Source: Segetibacter sp. | GTDB taxonomy: Bacteria > Bacteroidota > Bacteroidia > Chitinophagales > Chitinophagaceae | Length of the DNA: 45,233 nt | Assembly: GCA_028288485.1 (NCBI GenBank) | Contig: JAQBNO010000162.1 | Span: 1-45,233 of the forward strand | Direction of reading: 5' to 3' | Shown: one piece after another, positions 9,471-26,669 of the stretch | Layout: the number at the start of each line of letters is the position of its first letter | How positions within the stretch are numbered: the first letter of the stretch is position 1 | Made by a program: the position numbers and the translations under genes | The notes under the pieces: generated by a model | The model's input: the letters and a program-made list of their open reading frames with translations, nothing else | Told to the model about the DNA's origin: nothing | The model's database searches: none

Positions 9471-12203
9471 ATGGCTACCAACTGGAAATTATCTTTAAAA
9501 TTAGTCTTAGCCCTTTCTGTTGTTATTCTTATAGGCATCTTTTCTACCAACAGGCGCTTTGGTTTTTTTCGCGACGATGTAAATCCTAAAGTTCAGAAGC
9601 TTAAGCTGCAACCGAATTTCAAAGCAGAACATTTATATAGTCCTTCAGAGGCTGGTAATGGATCGTGGGTAGCAATGTGCTTTGATGATAAAGGCAGAAT
9701 GATTACCTCCGATCAATACGGATATCTATATCGCCTTACCATTCCACCGATTGGTGCAGATACCAACACCAATAAAATCAAAGTAGAAAAACTTGAAATT
9801 GTCATGGAGGGAGACACCTCCTCCAGTAAGATAAAAATGGGCTTTGCCCATGGCTTATTGTATGCCTTCAACAGTTTGTACGTGATGGTTAACAATAACC
9901 CGAATGCAGTAATGAATAGAAACAGCGGCCTTTACAGGTTGCAGGATATGAATAACGACGATCAATTCGATAAAATTACTTTACTGAAAAACCTGGTAAC
10001 ACCGGGCGGAGAGCACGGACCTCATAGCATCGTATTGGCTCCTGATAAAAAGTCTATTTATGTAATAGCCGGCAATCATACCGATGCTCCCGAGATGAAT
10101 TCGTACCGTCTGCCAAAAACATGGAAGGAAGACAATTTATTTCCATTAATAAAAGATCCCAATGGTCATGCCAACGATATTTATGCTCCCGGAGGTTGGA
10201 TTGCACACATAAATCCTGAAGGAACAAACTGGGAGTTAGTTAGTGCAGGCTATAGAAATCCTTTTGATATTGCTTTTAATGAGGATGACGAACTGTTTAC
10301 TTATGATGCCGATATGGAATGGGATTTTGGTATGCCGTGGTACAGGCCTACCCGCATTAATCATGTTACAAGCGGAAGCGAATATGGATGGCGCACAGGT
10401 AACAGCAAATGGTCGGCAACTTACCCTGATAATTTGCCTGCAGTTCTAAACATCGGCCAGGGATCTCCAACCAGCCTGACAAGCGGAAAGGATGCACGGT
10501 TCCCGGAAAAATATCGCCGTTCTCTTTTTGCTTTCGATTGGAGTTTCGGGATTATTTATTCAATCTTACTACGTCCTGAAGGCTCTTCTTATAAGGCTGA
10601 CGCAGAAGTATTTGTTTCCGGCACACCTTTGCCTGTAACTGATGGCGTTGTTGGCCCCGACGGTGCTCTTTATTTCCTTACCGGAGGTCGCAGGCTTGAT
10701 TCAGATATGTACCGCGTTTATTATGGCGATAACAATACACCCACTCCTCCGCTAACTTCCCGTTTAACAGCCGCGCAGAAACAGGCGCAGAACACAAGGA
10801 AACAACTGGAGAAATTTCATGAAGGTGCAAACCCCCAGGCTTTAATTACTGCATGGCCCCATTTGAAAAACCCTGATCGTTTTATCCGCTACGCTGCCCG
10901 TATTGCAGTAGAACACCAACCGGTAAGCGAGTGGCAGGAGAAGGCATTATCAGAAAAAGACCCACAGATCTTAACCCAGGCTATGATAGCATTGGCACGT
11001 TGCGGAACCGCGGACCTCGAGCCAGGAATGATAAATGCATTAGCATCGATTAATTTTACTGCATTACCCGTTTCTCAAAAAATAGATGTTGTAAGAGCCT
11101 TTGAATTAATCGTGTTGCGTATGGGAAAACCGGAAGGCGCTGCTTATACAAAAATGATCTCTTACCTGAACCCTCATTTCCCGGCCACAACCCATGAATT
11201 AAACCGGATATTAAGTAAAGTTTTGGTACATGTAGATGCTCCCCAGGCCGTAACAAAAACAATGGCATTAATGGCTACTGTTAAAGATAACGAGGAGTCG
11301 GCAGGTCAAAAAACCTTTACCAGTTCGGCAGACCTTGTCGCTCGTCACCCGATGTACGGACTGGATATTGCCGGTATGCTTGCCAAAACACCTCCGGCCG
11401 AAAAAATTTATTATTTAACCATATTAAGTGAGGCTAAAAAAGGTTGGACCCCGTTACTACGTGAAAAGTATTTTAAGTTTTTCAATACTGCTTTCAGCTA
11501 TAAGGGAGGAAATAGCTATATCGGTTTTATCGAAAAGGCCAGGAAAATGGCCCTTGCAAATGTTCCTAAAGAAAAAATGGAACACTTCAATACTGTTTCA
11601 GGAAACTCTTTAGTAATAACGAATGGAAGAAGGACGACTGTTGTTGGTAATCCAAAAGGTCCCGGAAGAGATTGGAAAATAGAAGATGCCCTTGCGGTGG
11701 TTAATAGCGACTCAACAGACCGAAATTTTGCCCAGGGAAAAATGTTGTTCAGTGCCACTCTTTGTGCCACTTGTCATAGTATGAGAGGCGAAGGCGGTGG
11801 TGCAGTAGGCCCCGACCTTACCCAATTAGGCACCCGTTTCTCTAACAGGGATATACTTGAATCTATCATTTTACCTAGTAAAGTAATATCTGATCAATAT
11901 GCGGCTACCGATTTTAAAATGAAAGACGGTAGTACTATAACAGGGAGGCTCAAAAACGAAGAAAATGGTAAATATTATATTTCAATGAATCCATTTGCGC
12001 CTCAATCGCTTCAAACAATTTTAAAGAAAGATGTTGTAGCCACAAAAATGTCTGAGGTATCTATTATGTATCCCGGAACAATCAACAGGTTAAATAAGGA
12101 GGAGCTAAAAGATTTAATGGCCTACCTGACTTCGGGGGCAAATAAAAATCACGAGGTATATAAACCAAAAGCAAACAAGCAGGCAACAGCATCGTCAAAA
12201 TAA
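9471..12203 (+). CDS. Membrane-anchored beta-propeller (sorbosone-dehydrogenase-like) protein with C-terminal cytochrome c domain
   Basis: 910 residues. An N-terminal hydrophobic segment (about 7-25) exports or anchors it. Residues of about 40-420 form a glucose/sorbosone-dehydrogenase-like beta-propeller (GGEHGPHSIVLAPD, AGYRNPFDIAFN, PVTDGVVGPDGALYFLTGG). About 440-700 is alpha-helical and HEAT-like. The last ~150 residues are a heme-binding domain with CATCH (C765, C768, H769) followed by GGGAVGPDLTQLGTRF, as in the planctomycete-type heme-binding family. Such proteins are proposed periplasmic sugar oxidoreductases that pass electrons to the respiratory chain. It opens the sugar locus, so a role in sugar oxidation or in taking electrons from it is inferred. 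Confidence 0.88.
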   Translation: MATNWKLSLKLVLALSVVILIGIFSTNRRFGFFRDDVNPKVQKLKLQPNFKAEHLYSPSEAGNGSWVAMCFDDKGRMITSDQYGYLYRLTIPPIGADTNTNKIKVEKLEIVMEGDTSSSKIKMGFAHGLLYAFNSLYVMVNNNPNAVMNRNSGLYRLQDMNNDDQFDKITLLKNLVTPGGEHGPHSIVLAPDKKSIYVIAGNHTDAPEMNSYRLPKTWKEDNLFPLIKDPNGHANDIYAPGGWIAHINPEGTNWELVSAGYRNPFDIAFNEDDELFTYDADMEWDFGMPWYRPTRINHVTSGSEYGWRTGNSKWSATYPDNLPAVLNIGQGSPTSLTSGKDARFPEKYRRSLFAFDWSFGIIYSILLRPEGSSYKADAEVFVSGTPLPVTDGVVGPDGALYFLTGGRRLDSDMYRVYYGDNNTPTPPLTSRLTAAQKQAQNTRKQLEKFHEGANPQALITAWPHLKNPDRFIRYAARIAVEHQPVSEWQEKALSEKDPQILTQAMIALARCGTADLEPGMINALASINFTALPVSQKIDVVRAFELIVLRMGKPEGAAYTKMISYLNPHFPATTHELNRILSKVLVHVDAPQAVTKTMALMATVKDNEESAGQKTFTSSADLVARHPMYGLDIAGMLAKTPPAEKIYYLTILSEAKKGWTPLLREKYFKFFNTAFSYKGGNSYIGFIEKARKMALANVPKEKMEHFNTVSGNSLVITNGRRTTVVGNPKGPGRDWKIEDALAVVNSDSTDRNFAQGKMLFSATLCATCHSMRGEGGGAVGPDLTQLGTRFSNRDILESIILPSKVISDQYAATDFKMKDGSTITGRLKNEENGKYYISMNPFAPQSLQTILKKDVVATKMSEVSIMYPGTINRLNKEELKDLMAYLTSGANKNHEVYKPKANKQATASSK

Positions 12204-12252
12204 TCTCAACTATAACAGGTAAATTTTCTTAAAGCTCAATATTCAGACGTAA

Positions 12253-12280
12253 GTACAAGTGAGTGACACAACGATGTTGA
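12253..12280 (+). repeat. Interspersed repeat, subtype A, left arm of an inverted pair
   Basis: Same 28 bases as the copy at 7833-7860. Faces the reverse copy at 12426-12449. Confidence 0.92.
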
Positions 12281-12425
12281 CGGAAGTTGCTGCGCCTGTC
12301 CCCAAAAAAATCTTAAACATATGATTCCTTTACAACCATTCTTTAATTCGTACACTGGCTAGCCGGTCGTAATTATTGTAATTGAGTTGGAAGTTTTGTT
12401 TACCGGCAAGTGGTTTTCATAGCGT

Positions 12426-12449
12426 CATCGTTGTGTCACTCACTTGTAC
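12426..12449 (-). repeat. Interspersed repeat, subtype A, right arm of an inverted pair
   Basis: Reverse complement of the first 24 bases of the copy at 12253, with no mismatch. Confidence 0.92.
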
Positions 12450-12505
12450 GACAGGTTCTTTATTGCCAAAACTGACACAACAATATCAAAAGGAGAACAG
12501 GTTCA

Positions 12506-13561
12506 ATGCATCAAAACTGGAGCGACAAAATTTCTAATTCTGCGCAACTTGGCGGTATAGAAACGTACGTAATTGATAATGGGCCGGGCCGGGGAACACG
12601 AATAGCATGGATCAACACCGGATCGGGACTTCGGTTTAAAGTGGTAATTGACCGGGCAATGGATATAGCAGATGCCTTTTATAACCGACACAGCCTCGCC
12701 TGGTTAAGTCATGGCGGCATAACTGCCCCCGAGCCTTTTTCGAATAAGGGATTAGATTGGCTGAAGACATTTGGTGGTGGATTATTTACTACTTGCGGCC
12801 TGGACCACGTTGGCGGGCCCGAAGGGGATGAATACGGAGAGCGTGGTTTGCACGGACAAATAAGTAACATTAGTGCAGAGCTAGAATCTATAATTCAACC
12901 TGACCCTTTAGCCGGTAAAATGGAAATGAGTATTACCGGAACAATGAAACAAAGCACCGTACTCGGGCCCAACCTGGAGCTGAGACGAACAATATCTGCA
13001 ACATTAGGACAGTCAAAAATACGAATACACGATGAAGTGATAAACCGTGGTAATACAGTGGCCCCGCACATGCTGCTTTATCATTTCAATTTTGGCTGGC
13101 CCTTAGTTGACGAAGGAACGAATATTACCTGGCAGGGCGAATGGAAACCACGCGAAGGCAATAGCAATAAGATCTTCAGGGAAGGAAATGATTTTCATAA
13201 ATGTATTGCGCCGTTACCTGAGCATAGTGGGGGAGGAGAAGAAGCTGCATTTATTGATATTATACCCGATAGTTCAGGATGGTGTACCTGTGGACTTCAT
13301 AACGCTGAAATCGGGCTCGCTCTTTCATTACGGTTTCAAAAAAAGCAATTACCCTGGTTAACCAACTGGCAACATTGGGGTAAAGGTGAATACGTCACAG
13401 GGCTTGAGCCTGGAACAAATCCTCCCGTGGGCCAGGCAAAAGCGAGGGAGCAACAAGAGCTGATCTTTTTAGCACCCGGTGAAACAAGGACGTATGACCT
13501 GGAAGTTGATGTGTTGGAAAATCATAAAAAAATAACTGAATTTCCGGAAAATAAAATGTAG
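12506..13561 (+). CDS. DUF4432 / aldose 1-epimerase-family protein
   Basis: 351 residues, with the galactose-mutarotase-like beta-sandwich pattern of the DUF4432 family: VIDRAMDIADAFYNRHSLAWLSHGG, the GGGLFTTCGLDHVGGP region (about 90-105), RGLHGQISN and the late GLEPGTNPPVGQ. The family is related to aldose 1-epimerases that interconvert sugar anomers. Substrate is unknown. No signal peptide, so cytosolic. Unusually for this phylum, a purine-rich AAAGGAGAACAGG precedes the ATG by about 5-15 bases and supports the start. Placed between the propeller-cytochrome gene and susC, it probably handles the imported sugar. Confidence 0.85.
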   Translation: MHQNWSDKISNSAQLGGIETYVIDNGPGRGTRIAWINTGSGLRFKVVIDRAMDIADAFYNRHSLAWLSHGGITAPEPFSNKGLDWLKTFGGGLFTTCGLDHVGGPEGDEYGERGLHGQISNISAELESIIQPDPLAGKMEMSITGTMKQSTVLGPNLELRRTISATLGQSKIRIHDEVINRGNTVAPHMLLYHFNFGWPLVDEGTNITWQGEWKPREGNSNKIFREGNDFHKCIAPLPEHSGGGEEAAFIDIIPDSSGWCTCGLHNAEIGLALSLRFQKKQLPWLTNWQHWGKGEYVTGLEPGTNPPVGQAKAREQQELIFLAPGETRTYDLEVDVLENHKKITEFPENKM

Positions 13562-13615
13562 ATAATTAAAAACGCTTTTAATGCAAACTCCTGTAAAATG
13601 TTCCCCAAGAAGAGT

Positions 13616-13646
13616 GTTGGCACGGGGACAGTCAATAGTACGTTTG
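13616..13646 (+). promoter_or_regulatory. Putative Bacteroidota promoter of susC-susD
   Basis: TACGTTTG (13639-13646) fits the -7 consensus TAnnTTTG. GTTG (13616-13619) lies 19 bp upstream, the usual spacing of the -33 element. Predicted transcription starts near 13653, giving about 100 bases of leader before susC. Confidence 0.5.
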
Positions 13647-13750
13647 GCGCCAACATAATCCATTTTTTGTATAGCCCAAAAAACAGAAAACAATGAACCC
13701 AAAACGCATTAATCTATTAATGTATTTCTAACGCAGATCGCTTGTCAATT

Positions 13751-16700
13751 ATGAAAAAAATTATACTGAAAAAGATAAAGTACCTGTGTGTACTTTACCT
13801 GGTGCTACTCTCCTCAACCGGAGCATGGGCACAAGCCAACATTAGAGGAAAAATTACCGACGAGAAAGGCGCGGGCCTTTCCGGTGTATCCATTCTACTT
13901 AAAGGTACAGGCAATGGTACGGGCACCGATGCAAACGGCGACTTTGCCATTAGCGTGCCAGGTGGAACGGGCACACTGGTTATTTCGAGTGTCGGTTATG
14001 GCTCTATGGAAGTAGCCATCAATAACCGAAATACCATAAATGTAACTTTAGCTGCTGATATCAGATCGTTGGAAAACGTGGTGGTGGTAGGTTATGGCAG
14101 CCAGTTAAAGAGAGAAGTTACCGGGGCAGTGCAAACAATTAACAGTAAAGAGTTAAAAGACTTGCCGGTGTCGCAGATAGGCCAAAAACTGCAGGGGCGT
14201 TTAGCTGGTGTTCAAATTAACCAGACAACAGGAAAGCCAGGCCAGGGTATGAATATTAGAATTCGCGGTCAGTTGTCTGTATCTGCAGGTAGCGATCCTT
14301 TGTATGTTGTTGACGGTTTTCCTCTTACAGGAAATATAGGTGCTATTAACCCTGATGAGATAGAAACTATCTCAATACTAAAGGATGCCGCTTCTACCTC
14401 GCTGTACGGATCCAGGGCAGCCAATGGTGTTGTTTTAATAACCACCAAAAAAGGGAGAAAAGGCCAAACGAATATGAGTTTCAACACTTTTGTGGGAACC
14501 CAGCATGTACCCATGCGTGGCAGGGTAAAAATGATGGATGCCGTTGAATTTGCACAATTCAAAAAGGAATACTATCAAGATGCAGGACAAGCTGTACCTG
14601 TTGAATTTCAAAACCCATCTCAGTATGAAGGCAAGAACAACGACTGGTACGGAGCATTGTTAAGAGATGCACCTTTACAAAGCTATAACCTGACTGTAAC
14701 CTCAAATACCGAGAAGATGAACACCGCATTGGTGGCAGGGGTTTTTGACCAGCAAGGCGTTGTTTTAAATACGAAATACAAAAGATATTCGCTTCGGATG
14801 AACTCAGACTTTTCTGTGTCTGATAAAGTGAAATTAGGTTTTAATATAGCTCCCCAATACGTTTTTGATAATACACCAAGGACGGACGGTGACAGGGGAA
14901 CAGGTATTCTTTTTAATGCCCTGCATACCTGGCCGGTAATGCCTATTTACGATGCAAATGGCCAATTAACCAAGTTTAACCAGTTTCCGGGAAGCACCGG
15001 TAATATTTTTGCTTACCCTAACTGGGTAAGAGCTGCAGAGGAGTTGAAAAATGAGACCAAAACCTACAGCATTATATCAAATGCTTATCTCCAATACCAA
15101 CCTTTTAAGGGGTTGGTTCTGAAGTCTACGATGAATGTTGAATACCAGAACAATAGGTTCTTCTTTTTCAATCCTTCAACCGCTACCAGTCAGATCAATG
15201 TGCCTATACCAACTACGGCCGTTTCGATCAGGCAAAATTCGGAAAGCATGAGTTGGCTGAACGAGAACCTTGCTACATATACAAGAAGCATAGGCGAACA
15301 CAACTTTGAATTGTTGGGCGGATTTACGCAGCAGAAATTTAACCAGAATATTACCCGAATCCAGGCCGACACCTATACAGATGACAGACTTCCTACTATT
15401 CAGTCAGCTGTTAACATAAACAGGGGAGGCAATCCTTCGAATACAAGAAATGATGTAAATGAATGGGGCCTTAACTCTTTTCTTTCCAGGCTGACATATA
15501 ATTTCAAGGGTAAATACTTATTAACTGCGTCGGTCCGTACTGATGGTTCCTCCCGCTTTGGACTTAATAATCGCTGGGGTACTTTCCCATCTGTCTCTGC
15601 AGGATGGGTGATGTCGGATGAAAATTTCTTTCGAAACTCAGGGTCAGTATCTTTTGCAAAATTAAGAGCAAGCTATGGAGTTATTGGGAATAATAACATT
15701 GGTAATTACACTCAGTTTGCTCTTGTAAATAATACTATTAATGCTGTTTTTGGTAATACGGTAGCTACTGGCGCCGTAAGAACTTCGTTAGCCAACCCCA
15801 ACCTTGGCTGGGAAACAACGAAACAAATAGACATCGGGTTAGATTTGGGCTTATTTAACGACAGGATACAGTTTACATACGACTTTTATACTAAAAACAC
15901 TACTAATTTATTGTACAGTGTTCAGGTGCCACAAGAATCAGGATTTACAAACTATAACGACAACATTGGAGAAATTAAATTCTGGGGTCACGAGTTTGCT
16001 GTAACTACAAGAAATACAGAAGGTAAACTCAGGTGGACCACCAATGCAAACATCTCTTTTAACCGCAACAGGGTTTTAGCTCTAGCTGAAGGTATCGACC
16101 GCGTATATGGTCCCGGCGGTTGGCACATTACCCAGGTCGGTCAGCCATTTGGACAATTTTACGGTCTTGTATCGGAAGGGATGTATTTGAACCAGGCAGA
16201 TCTTGACAAGAGTCCAAAAATTCCCGGTCGTTCCACTGTCGGCAGCATAAAAATGAAGGATGTAAATGGAGACGGGCTTATTACGTATGGCGGCGACTTC
16301 GACGACAGGACAATAATAGGATCTCCATTCCCTAAATTTACCTATGGTATTGTTAATACCTTAACTTACGGCAATTTCGATTTTAGCGTTGTCGGTTCCG
16401 GCTCTTACGGCAACCAGCTCTTCGTTAGGCATATCTACAGCACAGCGAACCTGGATGGTGTATTTAACTTGTTGCAGGAAGTGAAATATCGTTTCAGATC
16501 TGTATCTAATCCTGGAAAAGGATTTTTTGGAACAACCGTGGGTGGTGGTAATGTAACCGGTATCGAGAGAGATTGGATCAATAGCCGCTTTGTTGCAGAT
16601 GCGTCTTTCTTTTCCATTAAAAATGTAACCCTCGGCTATAATATCGGTGTAAAAAACAGGGTGTTTAAGTCTGCCCGTGTTTATGGTTCCGTTCAGCAGG

Positions 16701-16855
16701 TATATACATTTACAAATTACTGGGGAGGTCCAAATCCTGAGGTAAGTGGACAGGGAGATGGCAATGGCGACGGCGGTAACTTGGCCCAGGGCGTTGACTT
16801 TTCAAGTTACCCTGTTCCGCGCACGTATACTTTAGGCGTTAACCTTAATTTTTAG
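13751..16855 (+). CDS. SusC/RagA-family TonB-dependent outer-membrane transporter
   Basis: 1034 residues. Signal peptide of about 28 residues ending AWA/AWAQ, then a carboxypeptidase-regulatory-like domain (30-105), the SusC motif VVVGYGSQ (111-118), a plug domain (about 120-240, with LYVVDGFPL and DAASTSLYGSRAANGVVLI) and a 22-strand-type barrel to the C-terminal aromatic residue (GVNLNF). No N-terminal STN domain is present, so it is not the anti-sigma-signalling kind. It imports an oligosaccharide or glycoside with the SusD lid across the outer membrane. I chose ATG at 13751; the frame also allows an upstream TTG at 13742. SusD follows 48 bp downstream. Confidence 0.96.
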   Translation: MKKIILKKIKYLCVLYLVLLSSTGAWAQANIRGKITDEKGAGLSGVSILLKGTGNGTGTDANGDFAISVPGGTGTLVISSVGYGSMEVAINNRNTINVTLAADIRSLENVVVVGYGSQLKREVTGAVQTINSKELKDLPVSQIGQKLQGRLAGVQINQTTGKPGQGMNIRIRGQLSVSAGSDPLYVVDGFPLTGNIGAINPDEIETISILKDAASTSLYGSRAANGVVLITTKKGRKGQTNMSFNTFVGTQHVPMRGRVKMMDAVEFAQFKKEYYQDAGQAVPVEFQNPSQYEGKNNDWYGALLRDAPLQSYNLTVTSNTEKMNTALVAGVFDQQGVVLNTKYKRYSLRMNSDFSVSDKVKLGFNIAPQYVFDNTPRTDGDRGTGILFNALHTWPVMPIYDANGQLTKFNQFPGSTGNIFAYPNWVRAAEELKNETKTYSIISNAYLQYQPFKGLVLKSTMNVEYQNNRFFFFNPSTATSQINVPIPTTAVSIRQNSESMSWLNENLATYTRSIGEHNFELLGGFTQQKFNQNITRIQADTYTDDRLPTIQSAVNINRGGNPSNTRNDVNEWGLNSFLSRLTYNFKGKYLLTASVRTDGSSRFGLNNRWGTFPSVSAGWVMSDENFFRNSGSVSFAKLRASYGVIGNNNIGNYTQFALVNNTINAVFGNTVATGAVRTSLANPNLGWETTKQIDIGLDLGLFNDRIQFTYDFYTKNTTNLLYSVQVPQESGFTNYNDNIGEIKFWGHEFAVTTRNTEGKLRWTTNANISFNRNRVLALAEGIDRVYGPGGWHITQVGQPFGQFYGLVSEGMYLNQADLDKSPKIPGRSTVGSIKMKDVNGDGLITYGGDFDDRTIIGSPFPKFTYGIVNTLTYGNFDFSVVGSGSYGNQLFVRHIYSTANLDGVFNLLQEVKYRFRSVSNPGKGFFGTTVGGGNVTGIERDWINSRFVADASFFSIKNVTLGYNIGVKNRVFKSARVYGSVQQVYTFTNYWGGPNPEVSGQGDGNGDGGNLAQGVDFSSYPVPRTYTLGVNLNF

Positions 16856-16903
16856 GAACAGAGTTTACATAAATCATTTTCTAACATTCTTAGTCATTAT
16901 AAA

Positions 16904-18418
16904 ATGAAAGCAAAAATTATAATTTCGGGGCTGATCGGCTTTGTTCTAACAGGTTGTTCTAAAAACCTGGACGTACTTCCCGAGACGGCTTTGAGTTCAA
17001 ATGTCTTTTTCAAAACCGAGATAGAGTTCAAACAAGCGATCAATGGGGCCTATGTTCCTCTCAGGACTATCTATAACGATCGCGACTGGCTATTAGGTGA
17101 AATGCATTCCGACAACACGTATTACTTTCGTAACATCCTTTTCGGAGCTACAGAACAGCAGGAGAACCTTGCCGATTTTAGTATACCTACTGCTAATGGT
17201 ATTACAACCAACACCCACGTTCGCGACGAATACCGCGCACTTTACCAGATCGTAGCACGTGCAAACGAGATCCTGGCTCAAATTGATCCAGTAGATTTTG
17301 ATGCCGTCTCGAAAGCCAACTTAAAAGGACAAGCACAATTTCTGCGCGCCTTTGCGTACTTTAAATTGGTGCAGTATTTTGGAAAGGTTCCCTTGCATTT
17401 AACACCAGTTACCAATCGGCAGGAAGCCCCGGCGCAACTTGGATCGGTTGAGGACCTGTACAAGCAGATTGAAACTGACGCAAAAGCCGCAGCACAATCG
17501 TTGCCACTAAAATCAAAACAGGATGCCGGAAGGGTGACTTCAGGTGCAGCCAAAACGTTACTCGGTAATGTTTATATCGTTCAGAAAAAATGGCCTGAAG
17601 CGGAAGCTCTTTTGAAGGAAGTTGTAACCAGCGGCGAGTATGATCTCATGCCCGACTATAGCAATGCGTTTTCAGGAACCAACAGTAATAAAAATAACAA
17701 AGAGTCCGTCTTTGAAGTACAGTTTATGGAAGGATCTGCAGGCTACAACGGAACTTTAATTTACAACTTTCTACCTCGTCCGATGACTGCAGCGGAACTG
17801 GCGCCTATTACTGGTGTTGCAAATCCGCAGGCACTTTCGGGTGAAGGAAATAACGCACCCACCCCTGATATCATTGCTGCTTATGAAACCGGTGATAAAA
17901 GAAAAGATGCTTCTATTGCATATGTTACATTAAGTTCAAGCTTGAGGGAAAATAAAGTGTTTCCTTACATCAAGAAATTTGCTTTCCCCCATGCTACATT
18001 TAATAATACAGGTAATAACTGGCCGGTTTACAGGTATGCCGAAGTTTTGTTATTCCTCGCCGAAGCGCTGAACGAACAGAATAAGGGGGGAGAAGCGTTG
18101 CCCCATTTAAATAAGGTAAGAGACAGGGCCTTTGGTGCAGGTGTATCTCCGGTAACAACCACAGGCCAGGCAGAGTTGCGCGATATTATCATGCGCGAAA
18201 GAAGAGTTGAATTAGCGTTCGAAAACAAACGCTGGCACGATCTCGTAAGAACTGGTAAGGCGGTTGAAGTGATTACTGCTTATGGAAGTAGAGTTAAAGC
18301 AAACCCCCAGGCTTACTATTACCCGAATGGTGCCGTTCCTCCTAATAATGCCTTCACTAATATAACCTTAACCTACGGCCTTCCTGCAGACGAGGCTGCT
18401 TTAAGTCCCTATTTTTAG
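16904..18418 (+). CDS. SusD/RagB-family nutrient-binding outer-membrane lipoprotein
   Basis: 504 residues. Lipoprotein signal with lipobox VLTGC (Cys18). The N-terminal SusD-like helical region has LRAFAYFKLVQYFGKVPL, and the C-terminal RagB/SusD domain has the typical IIMRERRVELAFENKRWHDLVRTG run (split here between residues about 425-450). SusD proteins cap the SusC barrel and bind the glycan at the cell surface. It is 48 bp after susC and followed by a strong terminator, so susC-susD form a transcription unit. The ligand cannot be inferred from the sequence. Confidence 0.96.
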   Translation: MKAKIIISGLIGFVLTGCSKNLDVLPETALSSNVFFKTEIEFKQAINGAYVPLRTIYNDRDWLLGEMHSDNTYYFRNILFGATEQQENLADFSIPTANGITTNTHVRDEYRALYQIVARANEILAQIDPVDFDAVSKANLKGQAQFLRAFAYFKLVQYFGKVPLHLTPVTNRQEAPAQLGSVEDLYKQIETDAKAAAQSLPLKSKQDAGRVTSGAAKTLLGNVYIVQKKWPEAEALLKEVVTSGEYDLMPDYSNAFSGTNSNKNNKESVFEVQFMEGSAGYNGTLIYNFLPRPMTAAELAPITGVANPQALSGEGNNAPTPDIIAAYETGDKRKDASIAYVTLSSSLRENKVFPYIKKFAFPHATFNNTGNNWPVYRYAEVLLFLAEALNEQNKGGEALPHLNKVRDRAFGAGVSPVTTTGQAELRDIIMRERRVELAFENKRWHDLVRTGKAVEVITAYGSRVKANPQAYYYPNGAVPPNNAFTNITLTYGLPADEAALSPYF

Positions 18419-18437
18419 TGGCAAAAAATATTAGTAT

Positions 18438-18484: not shown

Positions 18485-18570
18485 AGCTGTACTTGTTTGC
18501 CTTAGCTTAAATAGCGATGGTAAAAGATCAACTCTGATAATTTAAGTTCGAAAATTTAAAATCTATTTTA

Positions 18571-19794
18571 ATGGAAGTTTTGGAAAAAACCAGTTTAGCA
18601 AAAAAAGCATTAGAACAGGGAGAAGGAATATTACGCCTTGCTCCAACGTGGGTTCCACGTTCATTTTGTGTTCCCGGCAGAAGAATTAAGTTACACCCTG
18701 ATGATTATTATGTGCTTGGCGGTAATCGGGGTGGAATAGATGAACGTTGGCTGTCTTCAACCACACCCGCAAAAAACGGCCCGTTGACCGGCGAAAACGA
18801 GGGCTTAAGCGCCGTGGTTTTTAACGACGGAACAAACGAAAATCAAATACTATTAAAAGATGCAATCGACGAACTGAAAGGTGAATTGATCGGCGAGCGG
18901 TTGTGGAATGAATACCAAAGCTGGCCGATGTATTCAAAGTTTTTCGACAACATGGGTCCCTTGCCTCACCATATACATCATAACGATGAACACGCTGCTC
19001 ATATTGGCCAGTTAGGAAAACCTGAAGCTTACTACTTTCCTCCGCAACTAAATAATCATGGCGGCGATTTTCCCTATACATTTTTTGGAATTGCACCCGG
19101 TACCACTAAAGAGGAAATCAAAGAATGCCTCGTAAATTTTACCAAGGGCGATAATAAGATAACCAATTATTCCCAGGCTTTCCGCCTCGAACCTGGAACA
19201 GGTTGGGATGTACCCCCGGGAATGCTTCATGCCCCTGGTAGTATGTGTACATATGAACCACAAAAGGCGTCCGACGTTTTTGCCATGTACCAGTCGCTGG
19301 TGAATGAAGCTATCATTCCTGAGGAGTTATTGTGGAACGGAACCCCTCCTGATCGGATAGGAGATTATGACCAGTTGATGGAAGTTATCGATTGGGAACT
19401 TAATACAAATCCCAATATTTTGGAAACCCGTTTTATGCGTCCTAAGCCTGTTAAAGCTGTAGAAGAAATGAAAGCTGAAGGATACATTGAAAACTGGGTT
19501 TGTTACCTATCCGATGCGTTCAGTGCGAAGGAACTTACTGTTTTTCCGGGTCAAACGGTTACCATTAAAGACAATGCTGCTTATGGTTTGATCATGATGC
19601 AGGGTCGCGGCAAAATGGGGGTATGGGAGATTGAAACGCCTGCTTTGATCCGTTACGGCCAGTTAACAAACGACGAATTCTTTGTAAGTGAAGCCGCGGC
19701 TACACAAGGTGTAACCATCACTAATGCTTCAACAACCGACCCGATAGTAATGCTAAAACATTACGGACCGGGAAATCCTGACATGGTTTTATAG
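18571..19794 (+). CDS. Cupin-type phosphomannose-isomerase-like protein
   Basis: 407 residues. The metal site is LPHHIHHNDEHA (H133, H134, H136, H137, E140, H141), with a later PPGMLHAPGSMC, as in type I mannose-6-phosphate isomerases and related cupin sugar isomerases. A second small cupin-like region lies near residues 325-400 (VFPGQTVTIKDNAAYGLIMMQG). It is larger than simple cupins and smaller than ManA fusions. Cytosolic. A sugar or keto-sugar isomerase role is inferred from the fold and from its neighbours, the TIM-barrel and Gfo/Idh genes. It might also act on a phosphorylated hexose. Confidence 0.8.
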   Translation: MEVLEKTSLAKKALEQGEGILRLAPTWVPRSFCVPGRRIKLHPDDYYVLGGNRGGIDERWLSSTTPAKNGPLTGENEGLSAVVFNDGTNENQILLKDAIDELKGELIGERLWNEYQSWPMYSKFFDNMGPLPHHIHHNDEHAAHIGQLGKPEAYYFPPQLNNHGGDFPYTFFGIAPGTTKEEIKECLVNFTKGDNKITNYSQAFRLEPGTGWDVPPGMLHAPGSMCTYEPQKASDVFAMYQSLVNEAIIPEELLWNGTPPDRIGDYDQLMEVIDWELNTNPNILETRFMRPKPVKAVEEMKAEGYIENWVCYLSDAFSAKELTVFPGQTVTIKDNAAYGLIMMQGRGKMGVWEIETPALIRYGQLTNDEFFVSEAAATQGVTITNASTTDPIVMLKHYGPGNPDMVL

Positions 19795-19853
19795 TTATTT
19801 AAGGGATACGCAAACGTTTTTTTTTTGAGCCAGGCGACAAAGCGTCTATTTAA

Positions 19854-19877
19854 CACCGTTGCGTCGCACTCTTGTAC
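19854..19877 (-). repeat. Interspersed repeat, subtype B
   Basis: Contains the reverse complement of GTACAAGAGTGCGACGCAAC, in the gap between the cupin and TIM-barrel genes. Confidence 0.85.
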
Positions 19878-20006
19878 TGTTGTTACTTCATGCACCAATT
19901 CTATAAGCGGCACTAAATTATTTCCTGGAAAATGCAATTAATACTAATGTAACAATTTTAAATCGCTAACTCGTGATTGTTTTTATTAAACCAAATCATC
20001 TAACGA

Positions 20007-21041
20007 ATGAACCAAAATAATTATCCTAAGCTGCACAATGCCACCTGGCCTGGTATAGTTGGAAAAGGGCCCGATTCTGAACCCGTTATTTCTTTTGATG
20101 AAATGCTTCGAATGACCGCCGCCGCTGAAGTGGATGGGGTGAAGTTTGACGGTGTTGATCTTGGCCTCTTTGATCCCCATATAAATATAAATAGTACTGA
20201 TGATGAAATAAAACAGCTGGCCGATAAAGTTGGTGGCCTCAACCTGAATATAGGTAGTCTTGTTGCGCCTATCTGGGGTGGCCCTGCAATGGGTAGTAAA
20301 GAAGATCGTGCACTATTTGTTGAAATGGTTAGAAAAGCTTGTCACTTCGGTAAGACTTTACGCGAATTGGGGGTCCGTCCTTCTGGAATTGTTCGTATAG
20401 ACTCCGCCAGTTCTCCTGTCGATTGGGAAAAAGACCCTGTAAACAATACAAAACTAATTGCTGAAACTTTTCGCGAAGCCTGTGATGTTGCTGCCGACTA
20501 CGGCGAAAGACTTGCTGCCGAAGGAGAGATCTGCTGGGGCGGTATGCACAGTTGGAGAACGATGATTGATACTTTGGAGGCTGTAGATCGTCCTAATATA
20601 GGTTTCCAGGCCGATATGTCTCATACAACTTTATACCTGCTAGGTTACAACAGGCCCGAAGATCGTATCCTTCCTGAAAATTTTGATTGGACTGATCGTG
20701 AAGCTTTGACTGAAGGTCTTAAAACTGTAACAAAAGCACTTCGTCCGTGGACAATTGACTTTCATGTCGCTCAGAACGACGGAACGGTTCACGGAACAGG
20801 TTCGCACGATAAAACAGGGCGCCATTGCCAGGCTACTGACCCTAACGGGAAACTTGATATTGTACGTGATGCCGGTTACTGGCTGCGCGATGAGAATGGC
20901 GAACTAACCAGGGCGTTTAAACACATTTGCTGGGACGGTTGCATGTTCTCGAATGAAGTAATGAAACGCCAGCAAACCTGGAACGACATACTCGCAACCA
21001 TGATAAAAGTGCGCGACGCACATGGATGGAACGAAGGGTAG
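20007..21041 (+). CDS. Sugar phosphate isomerase/epimerase-like TIM-barrel protein
   Basis: 344 residues, of the xylose-isomerase-like TIM-barrel superfamily. Acidic and histidine ligands sit at strand ends in [20 protein letters not shown] and [14 protein letters not shown], which also opens a His-rich insert ([12 protein letters not shown]). The superfamily includes epimerases, inosose dehydratase (IolE) and the 3-keto-sugar beta-eliminases/hydratases of levoglucosan catabolism. Cytosolic, no signal. It is directly followed by a Gfo/Idh/MocA gene, a pairing seen in C3-oxidation pathways, so an elimination, hydration or epimerisation step on a keto-sugar is the favoured inference. Confidence 0.88.
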
Positions 21042-21045
21042 ACGC

Positions 21046-21123
21046 GTTACCGGTTACCGGTTGCCGGTTGCCTGTAACGAGTTGCCGGTAACGGGAAACT
21101 GGTAACTTGTAACTGGTAACCCT
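21046..21123. repeat. GTTACCG heptad repeat tract with inverted second half
   Basis: GTTACCG repeats about three times, drifts to GTTGCCG, then appears in inverse form (GGTAACGGG, CTGGTAACTTGTAACTGG). The tract starts 4 bp after the TIM-barrel stop and could fold into an imperfect hairpin. A sister tract is at 7610-7668. Confidence 0.85.
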
Positions 21124-21157
21124 GACAGTATTTTTCAATGTTTAATCGTACCGACAA

Positions 21158-22312
21158 ATGAATAATAAAAAAGAATTAAGGATTGGATTAATAGGAGGCG
21201 GTTTTATGGGCCGCACCCATTCGAATGGTTATAATCGTGTTTCAAATTTCTTTCCGCAGTTGGAATACAAGCCGGTTTTGAAAGCTGTTTGCTCCCGTAC
21301 CTTAGATAAGGTTCGTGCATTTGCCGATCAATGGGGCTACGAGTCGGTTGAAACAGACTGGAAGGCTTTGGTGGCTCGCGACGATATTGATGCAGTAGAT
21401 ATTTGCACGCCAAATGATACGCATGCCGAAATTTCTATTGCCGCTGCAGCTGCAGGAAAAATGATCCTGTGTGAAAAACCACTTGCACGTTCTTTAAGCG
21501 AAGCTCAAACAATGGTGGATGCGGTTGAAAAGGCGGGTGTTCAAAATACGGTTTGGTACAACTACCGCCGTCTGCCTGCTGTTACTTTAGCCAAACAAAT
21601 AATTGATTCAGGAAAACTGGGACGGATTTTCCATTACCGCGCCAATTTTTTACAGGACTGGACCATCAATGCAAATGTTCCGCAGGGAGGCGCAGGTACG
21701 TGGCGCCTCGATGTGGAAGCAGCCGGTTCTGGCGTTACAGGTGACCTGCTGGCGCACTGTATCGACGCCGCTATCTGGATGAATGGAAGCATTAAGGACG
21801 TTTCTGCGGTTACCGAAACCTTTATTAAAGAACGTGTTCACCAGGCAACCGGCCAGGTGCAAAAGGTGGGTATCGACGACGCATGCATATTCCACTGTCA
21901 TTTCGAGAATGGCTCTTTGGGTCTCTTCGAATCTACCCGCTATGCACGTGGCCACAAAGCTTTATACACTTTCGAAATTAACGGCGAACATGCATCTATC
22001 CGTTGGGACCTGCACGACTTAAACAAACTTGAATATTTCGACCATAGAGACGAGTCTATCGTTCGTGGCTGGCGAACCATTCATGTTACGGACGGTGATC
22101 AGCCTTACATGGATAAATGGTGGGTTCCCGGCTTATCGATTGGTTACGAACACTCTTTTGTACACCAGGCAGCAGATTTCCTGAAAAGCCTTGAAACAGG
22201 TGAACCCTGTTCGCCAACGTTTAAAGAAGCGCTTGAAACGCAGAAGGTCTGCCAGGCAGTTTTAGACTCAGCCGCTTCACGAACGTGGAAAGACATTAAT
22301 GAAGATTACTAG
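21158..22312 (+). CDS. Gfo/Idh/MocA-family NAD(P)-dependent sugar oxidoreductase
   Basis: 384 residues. N-terminal Rossmann motif [13 protein letters not shown] (9-21). The family active-site motif CEKPLA has its lysine at 107. The C-terminal alpha/beta domain contains [31 protein letters not shown], with the usual catalytic Asp/His pair in this region. Cytosolic, no Tat or Sec signal. The family oxidises or reduces ring carbons, often C3 of glucosides, levoglucosan or inositol. Together with the TIM-barrel gene upstream and the DUF1080 gene downstream, C3 oxidation of a glycoside is the best-supported inference. Confidence 0.9.
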
Positions 22313-22928
22313 AGGGATATCAAACGTTATTACATTAAGCGACTATTGTATTGGTTTAAATATTCGTAAGCAATGTTCAATACTGAATTAGCAATACAGG
22401 CAGTTATATTTCTTTAATTAAAATAAAGCATTGAGCGTAGAATATTGAACATTGTTTTGTTAAGTTGATGAATGCGAAAAATTACTAATCCTGTATAAGC
22501 AAAGCCAGGTGGAATGCAACGAATACAAACAAAATAAATGATAACAAAATAACTGTAATTGGTTCTTCGGTATAGTTGGTTAAGCCTGTTTTATAAATTG
22601 AAACAGCTTTTGACTTTAAAACCAAAGATGCTTACTGCACAATAGATGAAAGGATTGCGACGCAACGATGTTGCCATAAATGCAAATGCTTGTATCACAA
22701 AATATCTGTTATGCAAATTATACCGGAGGGCCAATTATTATAATCGCATTACTATAAAGAAAGTTTTTATAGTTCCTGGTACCTGTTGTAAATGAACACT
22801 TATCGTAGGTCGTATTACTTATCTTACTATAGGCATACGCTTCGCCGCTGTATTAAATGCAATTATCGCAAAGTTTATTGTTACACTTTCAGTTAGAAAC
22901 AAAAATGGTTCGGGAATAAACAATAAAA
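22313..22928. other. 615-bp gap with a long-loop inverted repeat and a partial interspersed repeat
   Basis: CAATGTTCAATA (22371-22382) pairs with TATTGAACATTG (22443-22454) across about 60 bases, followed by TTTTG. A partial interspersed repeat (TGCGACGCAACGATGTTG, 22656-22673) lies further on. There is no supported gene. Confidence 0.55.
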
Positions 22929-24104
22929 ATGGATAAAGCTATAATACCCTGTTTACTCTTTCTTTTTATTTCATTTGCAGGGTTTAGCCAATCGACTGCA
23001 AATGCTTCTCAACAGGCTCCAAAGCCTTTAAAATTTTTAAAAAAACAGGTGGCGGCAGAGAGTTATGAATCTGTAGAGGTGTTTGATGTAAACAACGACA
23101 AAATTCCGGACATAGTCTCGGGCGGGTATTGGTACGAAGGGCCATCTTACTGGAAAAGAAATTATATCGGCCCGGTAAAAAAAGTAGGGGAGTATTGGGA
23201 TGAATTTTCTACCATACCGCTTGATGTTAATGGTGACGGTCGAATAGATTTTGTAACCGGCGGTTGGTTTGGTAAAACACTTACCTGGCGTGAAAACCCG
23301 GGAAATAATAAGGAGTGGCCGGAACACGCAATAGCGGAAACAGGAAACATTGAATCGAGCCGATCATGGGATATTGACGGAGACGGTGTACAAGAGATTG
23401 TTCCAAATACTCCCAACGATCCTTTAGTGGTTTACCGGCTGGTAAAAGACGGCCAGGGAAAGGGTACCGGCAAGTTTGAAGTTTCAAAAATTTCGGATTC
23501 TAAAAGTGGTCACGGTTTAGGCTTTGGTGATATTAATGGCGATGGCAGAGGCGATTTAATTGTCAGCGGTGGTTGGGCCGAAGCTCCGGTAAATCCTTTC
23601 AAAGATCCATGGACTTTTCATGGAGATTTTTCACTCGGAACTTCCAGTGTTCCCGTACTCGTTGCAGATGTAAATAAAGATGGTTTGAACGATTTAATTG
23701 TGGGACAAGCACATAGCTACGGATTGGATTGGTACGAACAAAAAAAGGATAAAAAAGCAAAAGTGTCCTGGGTCAAACATTCTATCGATCCCTTCAATTC
23801 GCAGTTTCATACCATGAAATGGGTTGATTTGGATGGCGACGGAAAAGAAGAATTACTGACAGGTAAACGCTACCGTGCTCATAATGGCAATGATCCTGGC
23901 GAGAATGATCCGTTAGGAATTTATTATTATAAATGGACCGGGGAATCGTTTACCAAGCAAGTAATCAGCTTTGGTCCCTTTGGAGAAGGTAAAGGTTTAG
24001 GGGTGTATTTCTCGGTGGCGGATTTAACCGGATCGGGAAGAAAGGATATTATCGCAGCCGGTAAAGATGGACTGTTTGTATTTTACAACAAGGGGGCTGA
24101 ATAA
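22929..24104 (+). CDS. Secreted FG-GAP/VCBS repeat protein (seven-bladed propeller)
   Basis: 391 residues with a signal peptide of about 20 residues (CLLFLFISFAGFSQ). Seven calcium-binding-like Asp-rich repeats are visible: DVNNDKIPD, DVNGDGRID, DIDGDGVQE, DINGDGRGD, DVNKDGLND, DLDGDGKEE and DLTGSGRKD, each followed by a hydrophobic strand and Gly. This is the layout of a seven-bladed FG-GAP propeller. Such proteins accompany 3-keto-disaccharide hydrolase genes in Bacteroidota and Planctomycetes; a binding or lyase-like role is possible, but no catalytic residues can be named. It is 38 bp before the DUF1080 gene, so the two are probably co-transcribed. Confidence 0.87.
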   Translation: MDKAIIPCLLFLFISFAGFSQSTANASQQAPKPLKFLKKQVAAESYESVEVFDVNNDKIPDIVSGGYWYEGPSYWKRNYIGPVKKVGEYWDEFSTIPLDVNGDGRIDFVTGGWFGKTLTWRENPGNNKEWPEHAIAETGNIESSRSWDIDGDGVQEIVPNTPNDPLVVYRLVKDGQGKGTGKFEVSKISDSKSGHGLGFGDINGDGRGDLIVSGGWAEAPVNPFKDPWTFHGDFSLGTSSVPVLVADVNKDGLNDLIVGQAHSYGLDWYEQKKDKKAKVSWVKHSIDPFNSQFHTMKWVDLDGDGKEELLTGKRYRAHNGNDPGENDPLGIYYYKWTGESFTKQVISFGPFGEGKGLGVYFSVADLTGSGRKDIIAAGKDGLFVFYNKGAE

Positions 24105-24142
24105 TCACCTGGAACATTTAAAAATTACTAATTAATATTAAG

Positions 24143-24928
24143 ATGCTAAAAAATTCTTCGTTCAAATTTGTTCCGTTAGGCGTAATCCTGGTTGTATTTC
24201 TGCCAGTCGCATTATTGATTGCCAGTTGCAAGGCCCAAAGCAAGAACAATAAAAATGCCGCTGGCTTTGTACAGATCTTCGATGGTAAAACTCTTAACGG
24301 CTGGGCAGGCGATCCAACCTATTGGAGGGTAGAAAACGGCAACCTTGTCGGCGAAATAACACCAACGACGCTTTTGAAAACCAATTCATTCATCATTTGG
24401 GGTGGCGGAAAGCCGAAAGATTTTGAGCTCACCCTTGAATTTAAAATAACAAAAGCCGGCAATAGCGGAATTAATTACCGTAGTGTTGAGTTCACCGAAG
24501 TTCCTCATGCCTTAAAGGGTTACCAGCTTGATATTGATGGGGCTATTCGGTATACGGGTCAGAACTATGAAGAACGTGGAAGAACCACTTTGGCTTACCG
24601 TGGAGAGATTGTAACTGTTAATCCACCCGGCAGTTCAACAGCTGCTGTTAGAGATTATGTTAAAAGCAATGCATGGACGGTCAGAACCGTAACAGGTTCC
24701 CTGGGTAGTTCTGATGAGTTAAAGAATAATATCAAATCTGAAGATTGGAATACCTGCAGGCTGGTTGCAAAAGGAAACCGCCTCCAGCATTATATTAACG
24801 GCGTATTAATGAGCGATGTAACCGATAACGATCCGGTCAATGGAAAGTCTGAAGGTTTATTGGGTGTACAGGTTCACGTTGGACCTCCAATGAAAGTAGA
24901 GTATAGAAACATTATGTTGAAGCAATAA
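24143..24928 (+). CDS. DUF1080 (3-keto-disaccharide hydrolase family) lipoprotein
   Basis: 261 residues. Hydrophobic N-terminus with lipobox LIASC (Cys29), then a DUF1080 beta-sandwich: FVQIFDGKTLNGWAGDPTYW, FELTLEFKITKAGNSGINYR, VPHALKGYQLDIDG, and the closing LQHYINGVLMSDVTD with GLLGVQVHVGPPMKVEYRNI. DUF1080 was renamed after members that hydrolyse 3-keto-glucosides, which are made by C3-dehydrogenases. The lipid anchor places it in the periplasm or at the outer membrane. It closes the plus-strand sugar locus; a terminator-like hairpin lies about 410 bp downstream. Confidence 0.92.
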   Translation: MLKNSSFKFVPLGVILVVFLPVALLIASCKAQSKNNKNAAGFVQIFDGKTLNGWAGDPTYWRVENGNLVGEITPTTLLKTNSFIIWGGGKPKDFELTLEFKITKAGNSGINYRSVEFTEVPHALKGYQLDIDGAIRYTGQNYEERGRTTLAYRGEIVTVNPPGSSTAAVRDYVKSNAWTVRTVTGSLGSSDELKNNIKSEDWNTCRLVAKGNRLQHYINGVLMSDVTDNDPVNGKSEGLLGVQVHVGPPMKVEYRNIMLKQ

Positions 24929-26646: not shown

Positions 26647-26669
26647 ATCCGTTGAATTATGGAATGAAT

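Follow-up and report, generated by a model that had tools for sequence, protein, structure and literature searches.

Nine co-directional genes on the + strand of the window (the whole 45,233-nucleotide stretch of Segetibacter sp. DNA that was analyzed), spanning positions 9471-24928 in the ORF list, may represent a conserved sugar operon of Bacteroidota. Reading their sequences, we tentatively propose that a rhamnose-containing glycoside is imported by this system and undergoes keto-type processing, with its product entering the L-rhamnose pathway. The core of the operon specifies a DUF4432 protein, a ManA-related cupin, a xylose-isomerase-like TIM barrel and a Gfo/Idh oxidoreductase, a set for which our literature search found no assigned function. 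At least 593 stretches encode a relative of the cupin, and we examined the best 80 by cupin identity; in all 47 of these that have 9 kb or more of flanking sequence on either side of the module (hereafter well-flanked), the near-invariant four-enzyme set occurs in the same order and on one strand. In the window it is accompanied by a SusC-type TonB-dependent transporter (13742-16855; TIGR04056, 820 bits), a SusD-type lipoprotein (16904-18418; PF07980, 121 bits), a periplasmic cytochrome c propeller protein, an FG-GAP protein and a DUF1080 lipoprotein. Family scans thus bear out the preliminary description, both in the named ORFs, with the SusC/SusD pair and all its partners on one strand, and in what they lack, as the nine proteins gave no glycoside hydrolase, polysaccharide lyase, two-component hybrid or ECF/anti-sigma match. 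The names of the sulfatase-like and lactate-utilization ORFs are our assumption from their first residues alone.

From the gene content, its conservation, the retained residues and the genomic linkage, we infer the reactions, the substrate and the protein responsible for periplasmic oxidation as follows. SusC/SusD would bring the glycoside across the outer membrane, and in the periplasm the DUF1080 lipoprotein would attack it, with the cytochrome c propeller protein acting alongside. The freed sugar could then pass into the cytoplasm, where a ribose-type ABC importer is a candidate carrier, being encoded alongside in a third of the well-flanked relatives among the best 80. There, the DUF4432 protein as a putative mutarotase, the cupin as a putative metal-dependent isomerase of the free, non-phosphorylated sugar, the TIM barrel and the Gfo/Idh protein would convert it via keto-sugar chemistry. 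A substrate that contains rhamnose is the most likely, and what is formed from it would be handed to RhaI, RhaB and RhaEW, which the host encodes on contig C11, apart from the window contig.

The preliminary description had called for a search for this gene set in other Bacteroidota and held that finding its genes apart in homologous loci would speak against it; the core proved to be unbroken in 47/47 well-flanked loci among the best 80, and all four core genes are also present in each of the nine non-host carriers from an even draw of 395 genomes. This synteny in other genomes excludes the co-occurrence of the genes by chance, and together with the 71-89% identity of the TIM and Gfo/Idh proteins to those of the window (23 and 20 sequences, respectively) it argues for one shared function. 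An orthologue of the cytochrome propeller protein is encoded in 42 of the 47 well-flanked loci and the optional FG-GAP gene in nine (best 80 in both cases). A sugar ABC transporter is represented by its ATPase gene in 17/47 and by three subunits together in 14/47 well-flanked relatives (best 80); these subunits are closest to ribose, xylose and arabinose importers, with every score below cut-off. Distant cupin relatives (35-40% identity) were set aside as a functional guide, their loci being devoid of the other module genes. The genes downstream of the module in four loci (L035, L067, L072 and L083; TatD, UbiA, DHQ-synthase-like and others), which we take to be an ebo-type cluster, were likewise judged to be unrelated neighbors.

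The module's relatives suggest a tie to L-rhamnose catabolism, a link that is new in this analysis. The function of RhaEW as rhamnulose-1-phosphate aldolase and its confinement to rha loci are documented in the available text of PMC3870299. Four of 34 genomes place its gene less than 10 kb from the module (at 1.5, 3.7, 4.7 and 8.3 kb) against 0.117 expected, with a Poisson P of 7e-6 that is optimistic, as RhaEW was picked after the neighbors had been seen, and that is drawn from related, non-independent genomes. Within 60 kb the figure is 7/34 against 0.70 expected, while RhaEW is on a different contig in 22/34 genomes and 269 and 1157 kb away in two. Full-length RhaEW is present in 43/43 module genomes (G182 and G416, being the same genome, counted once) versus 12/18 module-negative ones (Fisher P 3e-4, optimistic on the same grounds), so that it is itself common without the module. 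Individual arrangements include RhaEW within the module in G171 and about 11 kb off in G076; a RhaB-RhaI-RhaEW run divergent from a GntR gene and followed by one ORF, SusC and the module in Maribacter stanieri; a GH106 protein immediately after the ABC genes in two Emticicia; and, in two Pontibacter, a GntR beside the module that shares 40-41% identity with the one encoded in the host rhamnose locus. In Zobellia amurskyensis, the module and the rha locus are on separate contigs, and the window has no linked RhaEW, rhamnulokinase or other rhamnose gene. No match to RhaI, which is the usual isomerase, was found in 89 module loci; RhaI is beside RhaEW in 35 of 36 RhaEW regions, and hence most hosts would be able to use free rhamnose without the module. 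We know of no rhamnose step that needs a Gfo/Idh protein of this type. An operator common to the window and the host rhamnose locus was also considered and rejected, as most of the long words that the two have in common come from a repeat dispersed through the genome and no convincing palindrome was seen. Two copies of a 21-bp repeat that is dispersed in the genome lie inverted to each other at 12253-12449, between the cytochrome and DUF4432 genes, and are probably outside the function of the locus.

The cupin (407 aa; 18571-19794) has no Pfam or NCBIfam match, TIGR00218 included, and against the PDB sequences it gave three implausible matches alone (E 0.037 or worse). The label "ManA-like" given to it earlier is nevertheless right as a distant relation: profile-profile comparison (hhalign) with ten Bacteroidota ManA-like proteins, of which L110 is confirmed as ManA by TIGR00218, returned a probability of 97.3% (E 1.7e-11), and a distant cupin member (L130) scores 20 bits with TIGR00218 against a cut-off of 116. 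Its putative metal ligands H134, H136, E152 and H220 (hhalign positions) are invariant in 33 sequences and correspond to what we take, in positions and residue roles, to be the ManA metal site Q/H, H, E, H. In Zobellia uliginosa (G182), genes for GntR, RhaEW and an FGGY kinase adjoin the module, and a search of the genome found no RhaI and no RhaA; of the 23 RhaEW genomes searched, it alone gave this result. It is on this genome that we base a narrower and unlikely version of our proposal, in which the module gives rhamnosides a keto-sugar route of their own and the cupin would convert free L-rhamnose (or a 6-deoxyhexose) as a third, hitherto unrecognized type of isomerase. The galactose-mutarotase-like DUF4432 protein (12506-13561; PF14486, 329 bits; solved relative PDB 3ty1) shows invariant H116, H193 and E301 in 20 aligned sequences and is a putative cytoplasmic mutarotase or epimerase; our search of the available literature text on DUF4432 returned nothing on its enzymology.

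The Gfo/Idh protein (21158-22312; PF01408 and PF02894) has as its top solved chain the uncharacterized 4h3v (329 bits); its nearest relative of known activity among the solved chains is levoglucosan dehydrogenase (6a3f entry set, 271 bits). Its E106 and H200 align with the catalytic E103 and H193 of 6a3f, and K107 and D196, whose role we assume, are likewise kept. The levoglucosan link drawn in the preliminary description therefore stands as regards closest activity and residues, but not as regards family membership: the best curated family, NF052479, gives 336 bits against the LgdA equivalog cut-off of 650, a score on which we rule out a place in the levoglucosan pathway, and the matches to BT_2158_fam (34.7 bits, cut-off 750) and the BT_2159 family (33.4 bits, cut-off 650) are far lower. 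Family scans found no second, LgdC-like Gfo/Idh in the locus; LgdA, in which E103 and H193 are named as catalytic, also lacks this partner in about half of its loci (PMC10066097). The TIM barrel (344 aa; 20007-21041; PF01261, 44.5 bits) had no match among PDB sequences and has no relative that is informative on its role, and its candidate metal ligands E174, D203/H206 and H253 are invariant in 23 sequences. A relationship to RhaI was ruled out (hhalign 0.25%).

On the periplasmic side, the DUF1080 protein (24143-24928) belongs to PF06439 as first described (125.8 bits, cut-off 26.8) and starts with a lipobox, which we called, as we did all export features, by eye from the N-terminus and without a predictor; its nearest solved chain, 4jqt, is annotated just as a putative hydrolase. 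The cytochrome protein (910 aa; 9471-12203) matches PF00034 and TIGR02603 above cut-off and combines an N-terminal propeller-type part, where a PVC-type match to TIGR02604 at residues 67-402 stays below cut-off (66 versus 122 bits), with a middle part that matches no family and a C-terminal cytochrome c bearing a CATCH motif (C765, C768, H769). A lipobox-like cysteine is present in 12 of its 25 aligned orthologues. Its H182 and R262-N263 may resemble the soluble glucose dehydrogenase motif. PQQ dependence is unsupported: the propeller profile found no PDB match, solved PQQ sugar dehydrogenase members included, and PqqD, the one pqq gene sought, is absent from the host genome, which leaves room for PQQ uptake. 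The secreted FG-GAP protein (22929-24104) does contain FG-GAP_3 repeats, of which three stretches exceed the threshold, leaving the seven repeats first reported unconfirmed. The starts of the Gfo/Idh, TIM, cupin and DUF4432 proteins show no signal peptide. The original scheme, in which the imported glycoside is oxidized at C3 and then cleaved, is plausible by family, but it sets a Gfo/Idh protein without export signal before an exported lipoprotein, and given these differing compartments the keto-sugar would have to exit the cytoplasm between the two steps. The host genome also has, on contig C149, a separate exported-looking 3-keto set that includes GMC and gluconate-2-dh3 subunits, and its nearer BT_2158 relatives (449-503 bits, cut-off 750), with twin-arginine-like starts, lie outside the locus. 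In view of the missed cut-offs, the compartments, the C149 set, the rhamnose link and the ABC transporter, levoglucosan, trehalose and p-nitrophenyl glucosides are not our first candidate substrates.

A C3-oxidation reading can still be framed for the cytoplasm, with the Gfo/Idh protein oxidizing a general glycoside or anhydrosugar, the TIM barrel performing elimination and hydration (levoglucosan type), DUF1080 acting on a separately oxidized pool and the rhamnose linkage being incidental. The levoglucosan-dehydrogenase type and catalytic residues of the Gfo/Idh protein, the PF06439 membership of DUF1080 and the documented TIM-barrel beta-eliminases (PMC7676230, PMC10628242) are all in keeping with it. 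So is a further TIM barrel, c9 (nearest D-psicose 3-epimerase and IolO; 25% identical to the window TIM across just 80 residues), in 15/47 well-flanked relatives among the best 80, and in one locus (L029) the module adjoins an MFS protein that shares 80% identity with its counterpart in the C149 set. Nonetheless, with scores far short of the LgdA and BT_2158 cut-offs, no LgdC-like partner in the window locus, enzymes split between two compartments and a rhamnose linkage exceeding expectation, we regard it as doubtful.

Oxidation at C1 of an L-sugar or 6-deoxyhexose by the Gfo/Idh protein is a slimmer prospect than any of the above. In loci that encode c16, a lactonase-like alpha/beta hydrolase whose nearest match is 3-oxoadipate enol-lactonase, and c15, an IolE-like dehydratase, the product would go through a lactone to a keto-deoxy acid, leaving the cupin and DUF4432 as a parallel isomerase branch. 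The relatives of the Gfo/Idh protein do include 5ya8, a scyllo-inositol dehydrogenase with L-glucose dehydrogenase activity, but at 166 bits it is more distant than levoglucosan dehydrogenase; c15 and c16, both below cut-offs, each occur in 7/47 well-flanked loci (best 80) and are missing from the window, and the scheme has no place for DUF1080. Lastly, the module's patchy spread (10 of the 395 Bacteroidota genomes drawn, at an identity of at least 73%; 0/13 listed same-family genomes besides the host) and the variability of SusCD, FG-GAP, ABC, c8, c9 and ThuA among the 47 well-flanked loci of the best 80 would be expected of a horizontally moving cassette with loosely related functions on several rare sugars and no single pathway. 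The unbroken core and the high identity of its TIM and Gfo/Idh proteins make this the most improbable of the readings.

Rhamnose is a common sugar of plants and algae. A rhamnoside pathway without classical hydrolases, if it exists as proposed, would go some way toward explaining the use of rhamnose-rich material by Bacteroidota of soil and sea, a capacity that would be invisible to hydrolase-based annotation, and it would provide a testable role for DUF4432 and a new free-sugar isomerase.

Among known systems, class I ManA (mannose-6-phosphate isomerase) shares with the cupin a profile relation across the catalytic half and the metal-site pattern, but its first ligand, Gln, is replaced by His134 and the arginine of its SD-x-TYRIYD motif by Met239. 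The LgdA-LgdB1-LgdB2-LgdC levoglucosan pathway of Bacillus smithii (PMC7676230, PMC10066097) likewise joins an NAD-type Gfo/Idh protein, whose catalytic residues are kept here, to a PF01261 TIM barrel and often to a sugar ABC transporter. The window locus has one TIM barrel and one Gfo/Idh protein, and adds DUF4432, the cupin, SusCD, the cytochrome propeller protein and DUF1080. The Bacteroides BT2156-BT2158 operon, as presented in the available part of PMC10434189, similarly unites TIM, DUF1080 and Gfo/Idh proteins, with BT2157 named a 3-ketotrehalose hydrolase in that of PMC9007349; the window Gfo/Idh protein differs in its subfamily and in being without an export signal. The LacABC systems with DUF1080 of Caulobacter and Pedobacter, as far as the same part of PMC9007349 describes them, also place a DUF1080 lipoprotein near a cytochrome c, whereas family scans of the window locus yield no GMC or gluconate-2-dh3 subunit. 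Finally, as regards L-rhamnose loci with RhaEW, the window has no rha gene and the available text of PMC3870299 does not name the module enzymes as rhamnose enzymes; in several genomes, however, such loci adjoin the module, and some carry a sugar ABC importer and a GntR regulator.

The nine genes at 9471-24928 (+) form a real, conserved sugar operon. All nine ORFs of the preliminary description are present at its coordinates, on the plus strand throughout, and its claim that the locus lacks glycoside hydrolases, lyases and regulators holds for all nine proteins. Family scans identified a cytochrome c domain, DUF4432, SusC, SusD, a xylose-isomerase-like TIM barrel, Gfo/Idh, FG-GAP and DUF1080, with a PVC-type propeller match below the family cut-off in the cytochrome protein; the 407-aa protein (18571-19794), a ManA-related cupin, returned no family match in these scans and no credible PDB match. 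On the 5' side lie dnaA and genes for an FAD protein, an M19 peptidase and a DinB protein, while a 710-bp gap separates the operon from the opposite-strand N2O reductase cluster directly downstream (NosL, nitrous oxide reductase propeller protein and cytochrome c; 25639-29274, strand -). A dispersed 21-bp repeat, GTACAAGWGWGYGACRCAACG, occurs in 11 window copies at up to 3 mismatches against 0.01 expected (4121, 7833, 12253, 12429, 19857, 25579, 31608, 37090, 38702, 39870 and 41975), an inverted pair sitting between the cytochrome and DUF4432 genes.

Scanning genome contigs with the cupin recovered at least 593 confirmed relatives, of which the best 80 (82-90% identity) were kept; nearly all are labeled as Bacteroidota, one as Eubacteriaceae and two only as "uncultured bacterium". 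Contig ends truncate many of these best 80 loci; across all 80, DUF4432 occurs in 79, the TIM barrel in 72, Gfo/Idh in 69, the cytochrome protein in 64, DUF1080 in 58, SusD in 31, SusC in 30 and FG-GAP in 17. Sought in other Bacteroidota, as had been proposed, the core stands together in every well-flanked locus and every close carrier of an even genome draw. In the 47 loci with at least 9 kb on either side of the cupin, DUF4432-cupin-TIM-Gfo/Idh keeps the same order on one strand (47/47), accompanied by DUF1080 in 45 (same strand in 42), the cytochrome protein in 42 (same strand in 40), SusC and SusD in 25, an ABC ATPase in 17, ThuA in 13, FG-GAP in 9 and the neighbor families c8 and c9 (a TIM protein) in 15 each and c15 (IolE-like) and c16 (lactonase-like) in 7 each. 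The best 80 having been selected for a highly similar cupin, a less biased sample comes from 395 Bacteroidota genomes drawn evenly: 42 have a cupin match of any kind, which reaches at least 73% identity in 10 (one of them the host), falls at 35-50% in 9 and is only short and weak in 23, the one scanned of these last being a ManA. The close members other than the host all carry DUF4432, TIM, Gfo/Idh and DUF1080 (9/9), with the cytochrome protein in 8/9 and the SusCD pair in 4/9; in L125 and L127 of this draw the gene order is rearranged with the four core genes still together. The eight fully flanked distant cupin loci (L129-L136) have no further module gene, and some show ABC ATPase matches of 25-29% only. 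A tree of the four core proteins, concatenated (74 rows) and rooted at the midpoint, pairs the window with L009, a Segetibacter MAG, and places it in a group with Pontibacter L020, L021 and L029 plus L028 and L049, not with Chitinophagaceae loci; this placement and the patchy distribution hint that the module may have been horizontally transferred. Partial coverage of the literature on DUF4432, DUF1080 with PVC-type proteins, cupin rhamnose isomerases and rhamnose with 3-keto chemistry brought up no description recognizable as this operon.

PVC-type cytochrome proteins, with the architectures GDSL-like+DUF7133+cytochrome and PSCyt1-PSCyt2-PSD1, and DUF1501 proteins recur next to the module in Bacteroidota (L061:11264-14428, L062:1312-3696, L045:2236-3660). 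On an Arthrobacter plasmid (L141, NZ_CP084551.1), a cupin relative (32% identity) is the last gene of a cluster that includes a dihydroxyacetone-kinase-family gene, ribose-5-phosphate isomerase, a triose-phosphate-isomerase family gene and a ribose-type ABC importer, presumably akin to tetritol/erythrulose catabolism. A Spirosoma oryzicola plasmid (L143) carries another uncharacterized sugar locus, in which SusCD stands with Gfo/Idh, two proteins of TIM type, phytanoyl-CoA dioxygenase, ThuA, GH5 and GH140.

Keto-sugar chemistry by the operon is likely. The Gfo/Idh protein has the uncharacterized 4h3v as its nearest chain, followed by levoglucosan dehydrogenase (6a3f set), and retains E106-K107-P108, D196 and H200; it scores 336 bits against LgdA (cut-off 650) and 34.7 bits against the Bacteroides glycoside 3-dehydrogenase (cut-off 750). 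Profile alignment of the cupin with ten ManA-like proteins gave 97.3% (E 1.7e-11). Its H134, H136, E152 and H220, invariant in 33 sequences, coincide with the ManA metal-ligand positions. In the ManA motif SD-x-TYRIYD, by contrast, M239 of the window cupin takes the place of the arginine; we infer a putative metal-dependent isomerase whose substrate would be a free sugar and not a sugar phosphate. In DUF4432, H116, H193 and E301 are conserved in 20/20 sequences, 3ty1 being the single solved relative found, and the nearest solved relative of DUF1080 is 4jqt. The TIM barrel, 71-86% identical to its counterparts in 22 relatives, has E174, D203/H206 and H253 as candidate metal ligands and by sequence and profile comparison shows little or no resemblance to the c9 and c15 TIM proteins or to RhaI.

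Rhamnose compounds are the best-supported substrate class for the operon. RhaEW, a bifunctional rhamnulose-1-phosphate aldolase/lactaldehyde dehydrogenase, is reported to convert L-rhamnulose-1-phosphate to L-lactate and dihydroxyacetone phosphate and to have its orthologs always encoded in rha loci (PMC3870299). It occurs inside fetched loci of three lineages: L125 (NF006189, 1018 bits, cut-off 634), L068 of Zobellia uliginosa (the genome of L119, G182) and L057 (77% identical to the host RhaEW). Across 34 module genomes reached via named loci, RhaEW shares the module's contig (contig identity judged by length) in 12, at gaps of 1.5, 3.7, 4.7, 8.3, 24.9, 33.7, 56, 62, 76, 92, 269 and 1157 kb, the other 22 giving no distance. 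It lies within 10 kb in 4/34 (0.117 expected, P 7e-6) and within 60 kb in 7/34 (0.70 expected, P 9e-6), and is present at full length in 43/43 module genomes (taking G182 and G416 as one) versus 12/18 module-negative ones (P 3e-4) and 1/8 distant-cupin genomes, figures that concern a gene selected after inspection of the neighbors, non-independent relatives and mostly large module genomes.

In genome G171 one RhaEW lies within the module, and another follows a further 10-15 kb away together with a kinase and RhaI; in G076 the distance is about 11 kb. Maribacter stanieri shows RhaB-RhaI-RhaEW, a divergent GntR gene and one ORF, then SusC, SusD, cytochrome, DUF1080, c9, DUF4432, cupin, TIM and Gfo/Idh. 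The Pontibacter module locus L029 (G405) is without DUF1080, but the same genome encodes, at 5 kb from RhaEW, a DUF1080 protein with 60% identity to that of the window. The recurrent neighboring ABC importer is nearest to ribose, xylose and arabinose importers, and two Emticicia encode a GH106 protein directly 3' of the ABC genes. The host's own rha locus, on contig C11, comprises GH106, an FGGY kinase (a rhamnulokinase only through a weak 63-bit match), a RhaI-type isomerase (491 bits, missing the cut-off of 647), RhaEW and RhaT, both above their cut-offs, and a GntR-like gene. Words of the 21-bp repeat also occur in the host's RhaI-RhaEW gap. Next to the in-module RhaEW is an FGGY kinase of only 251 aa (L125:4478-5230); it contains parts of both the N- and the C-terminal domain and looks reduced relative to full-length kinases. 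Sulfatase-like starts of the RPNIIFILADD type, read by eye (L075:13956-17474, L186:10202-11950, L162:5517-6905), are found in Maribacter and G171 next to the module or to rha genes, which may hint at sulfated rhamnose-rich glycans in these cases.

Since RhaI adjoins RhaEW in 35/36 fetched RhaEW regions, the cupin is unnecessary for free rhamnose in most carriers. RhaI and RhaA are both missing only in Z. uliginosa among 23 RhaEW genomes searched; there the module is adjoined by RhaEW, a kinase and GntR, and the reading of the cupin as a rhamnose isomerase comes down to this single case. A MAG (L057/G427) has two RhaEW copies with RhaI in the flanking region of neither. The search that found RhaEW gave no RhaI match in 89 module loci and a single weak RhaT match (28%); of nine host control genes, five were unmatched in these loci and the others had 1, 2, 4 and 7 matches, some weak. 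In Zobellia amurskyensis, module and rha locus are on separate contigs, the latter adjoined by a SusC that shares 57% identity with the window SusC. One control-gene match favors a 3-keto reading of the module: the MFS protein adjoining the module in L029 shares 80% identity with that of a 3-keto-type set on host contig C149.

As read by eye from the N-termini, DUF1080 combines a signal with the lipobox LIASC, the FG-GAP protein has a signal, and the cytochrome protein has a hydrophobic stretch with a lipobox-like Cys in 12/25 aligned orthologs; DUF4432, the cupin, TIM and Gfo/Idh open straight into their domains with no signal. A Gfo/Idh without an export signal cannot simply oxidize the substrate of an exported DUF1080 lipoprotein, so that the initially proposed sequence, Gfo/Idh oxidation of a SusCD-imported glycoside at C3 followed by DUF1080 cleavage, is unlikely as written, the putative locations being different. 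By gene position, the cytochrome propeller protein is a candidate periplasmic oxidant; a PDB search with its propeller profile and a search for PqqD in the host genome demonstrated no PQQ link. The host genome has 22 PF06439 matches, and its contig C149 (L151) encodes a DUF1080 lipoprotein, cytochrome c, three PF01261 TIM barrels, an MFS protein, a GMC dehydrogenase, a gluconate-2-dh3 subunit and a BT_2158-type Gfo/Idh (488 bits, cut-off 750), several of these proteins, the Gfo/Idh among them, having twin-arginine-like starts. Its predicted proteins give the C149 set the look of an ordinary 3-keto system of the exported kind, from which the window locus differs.
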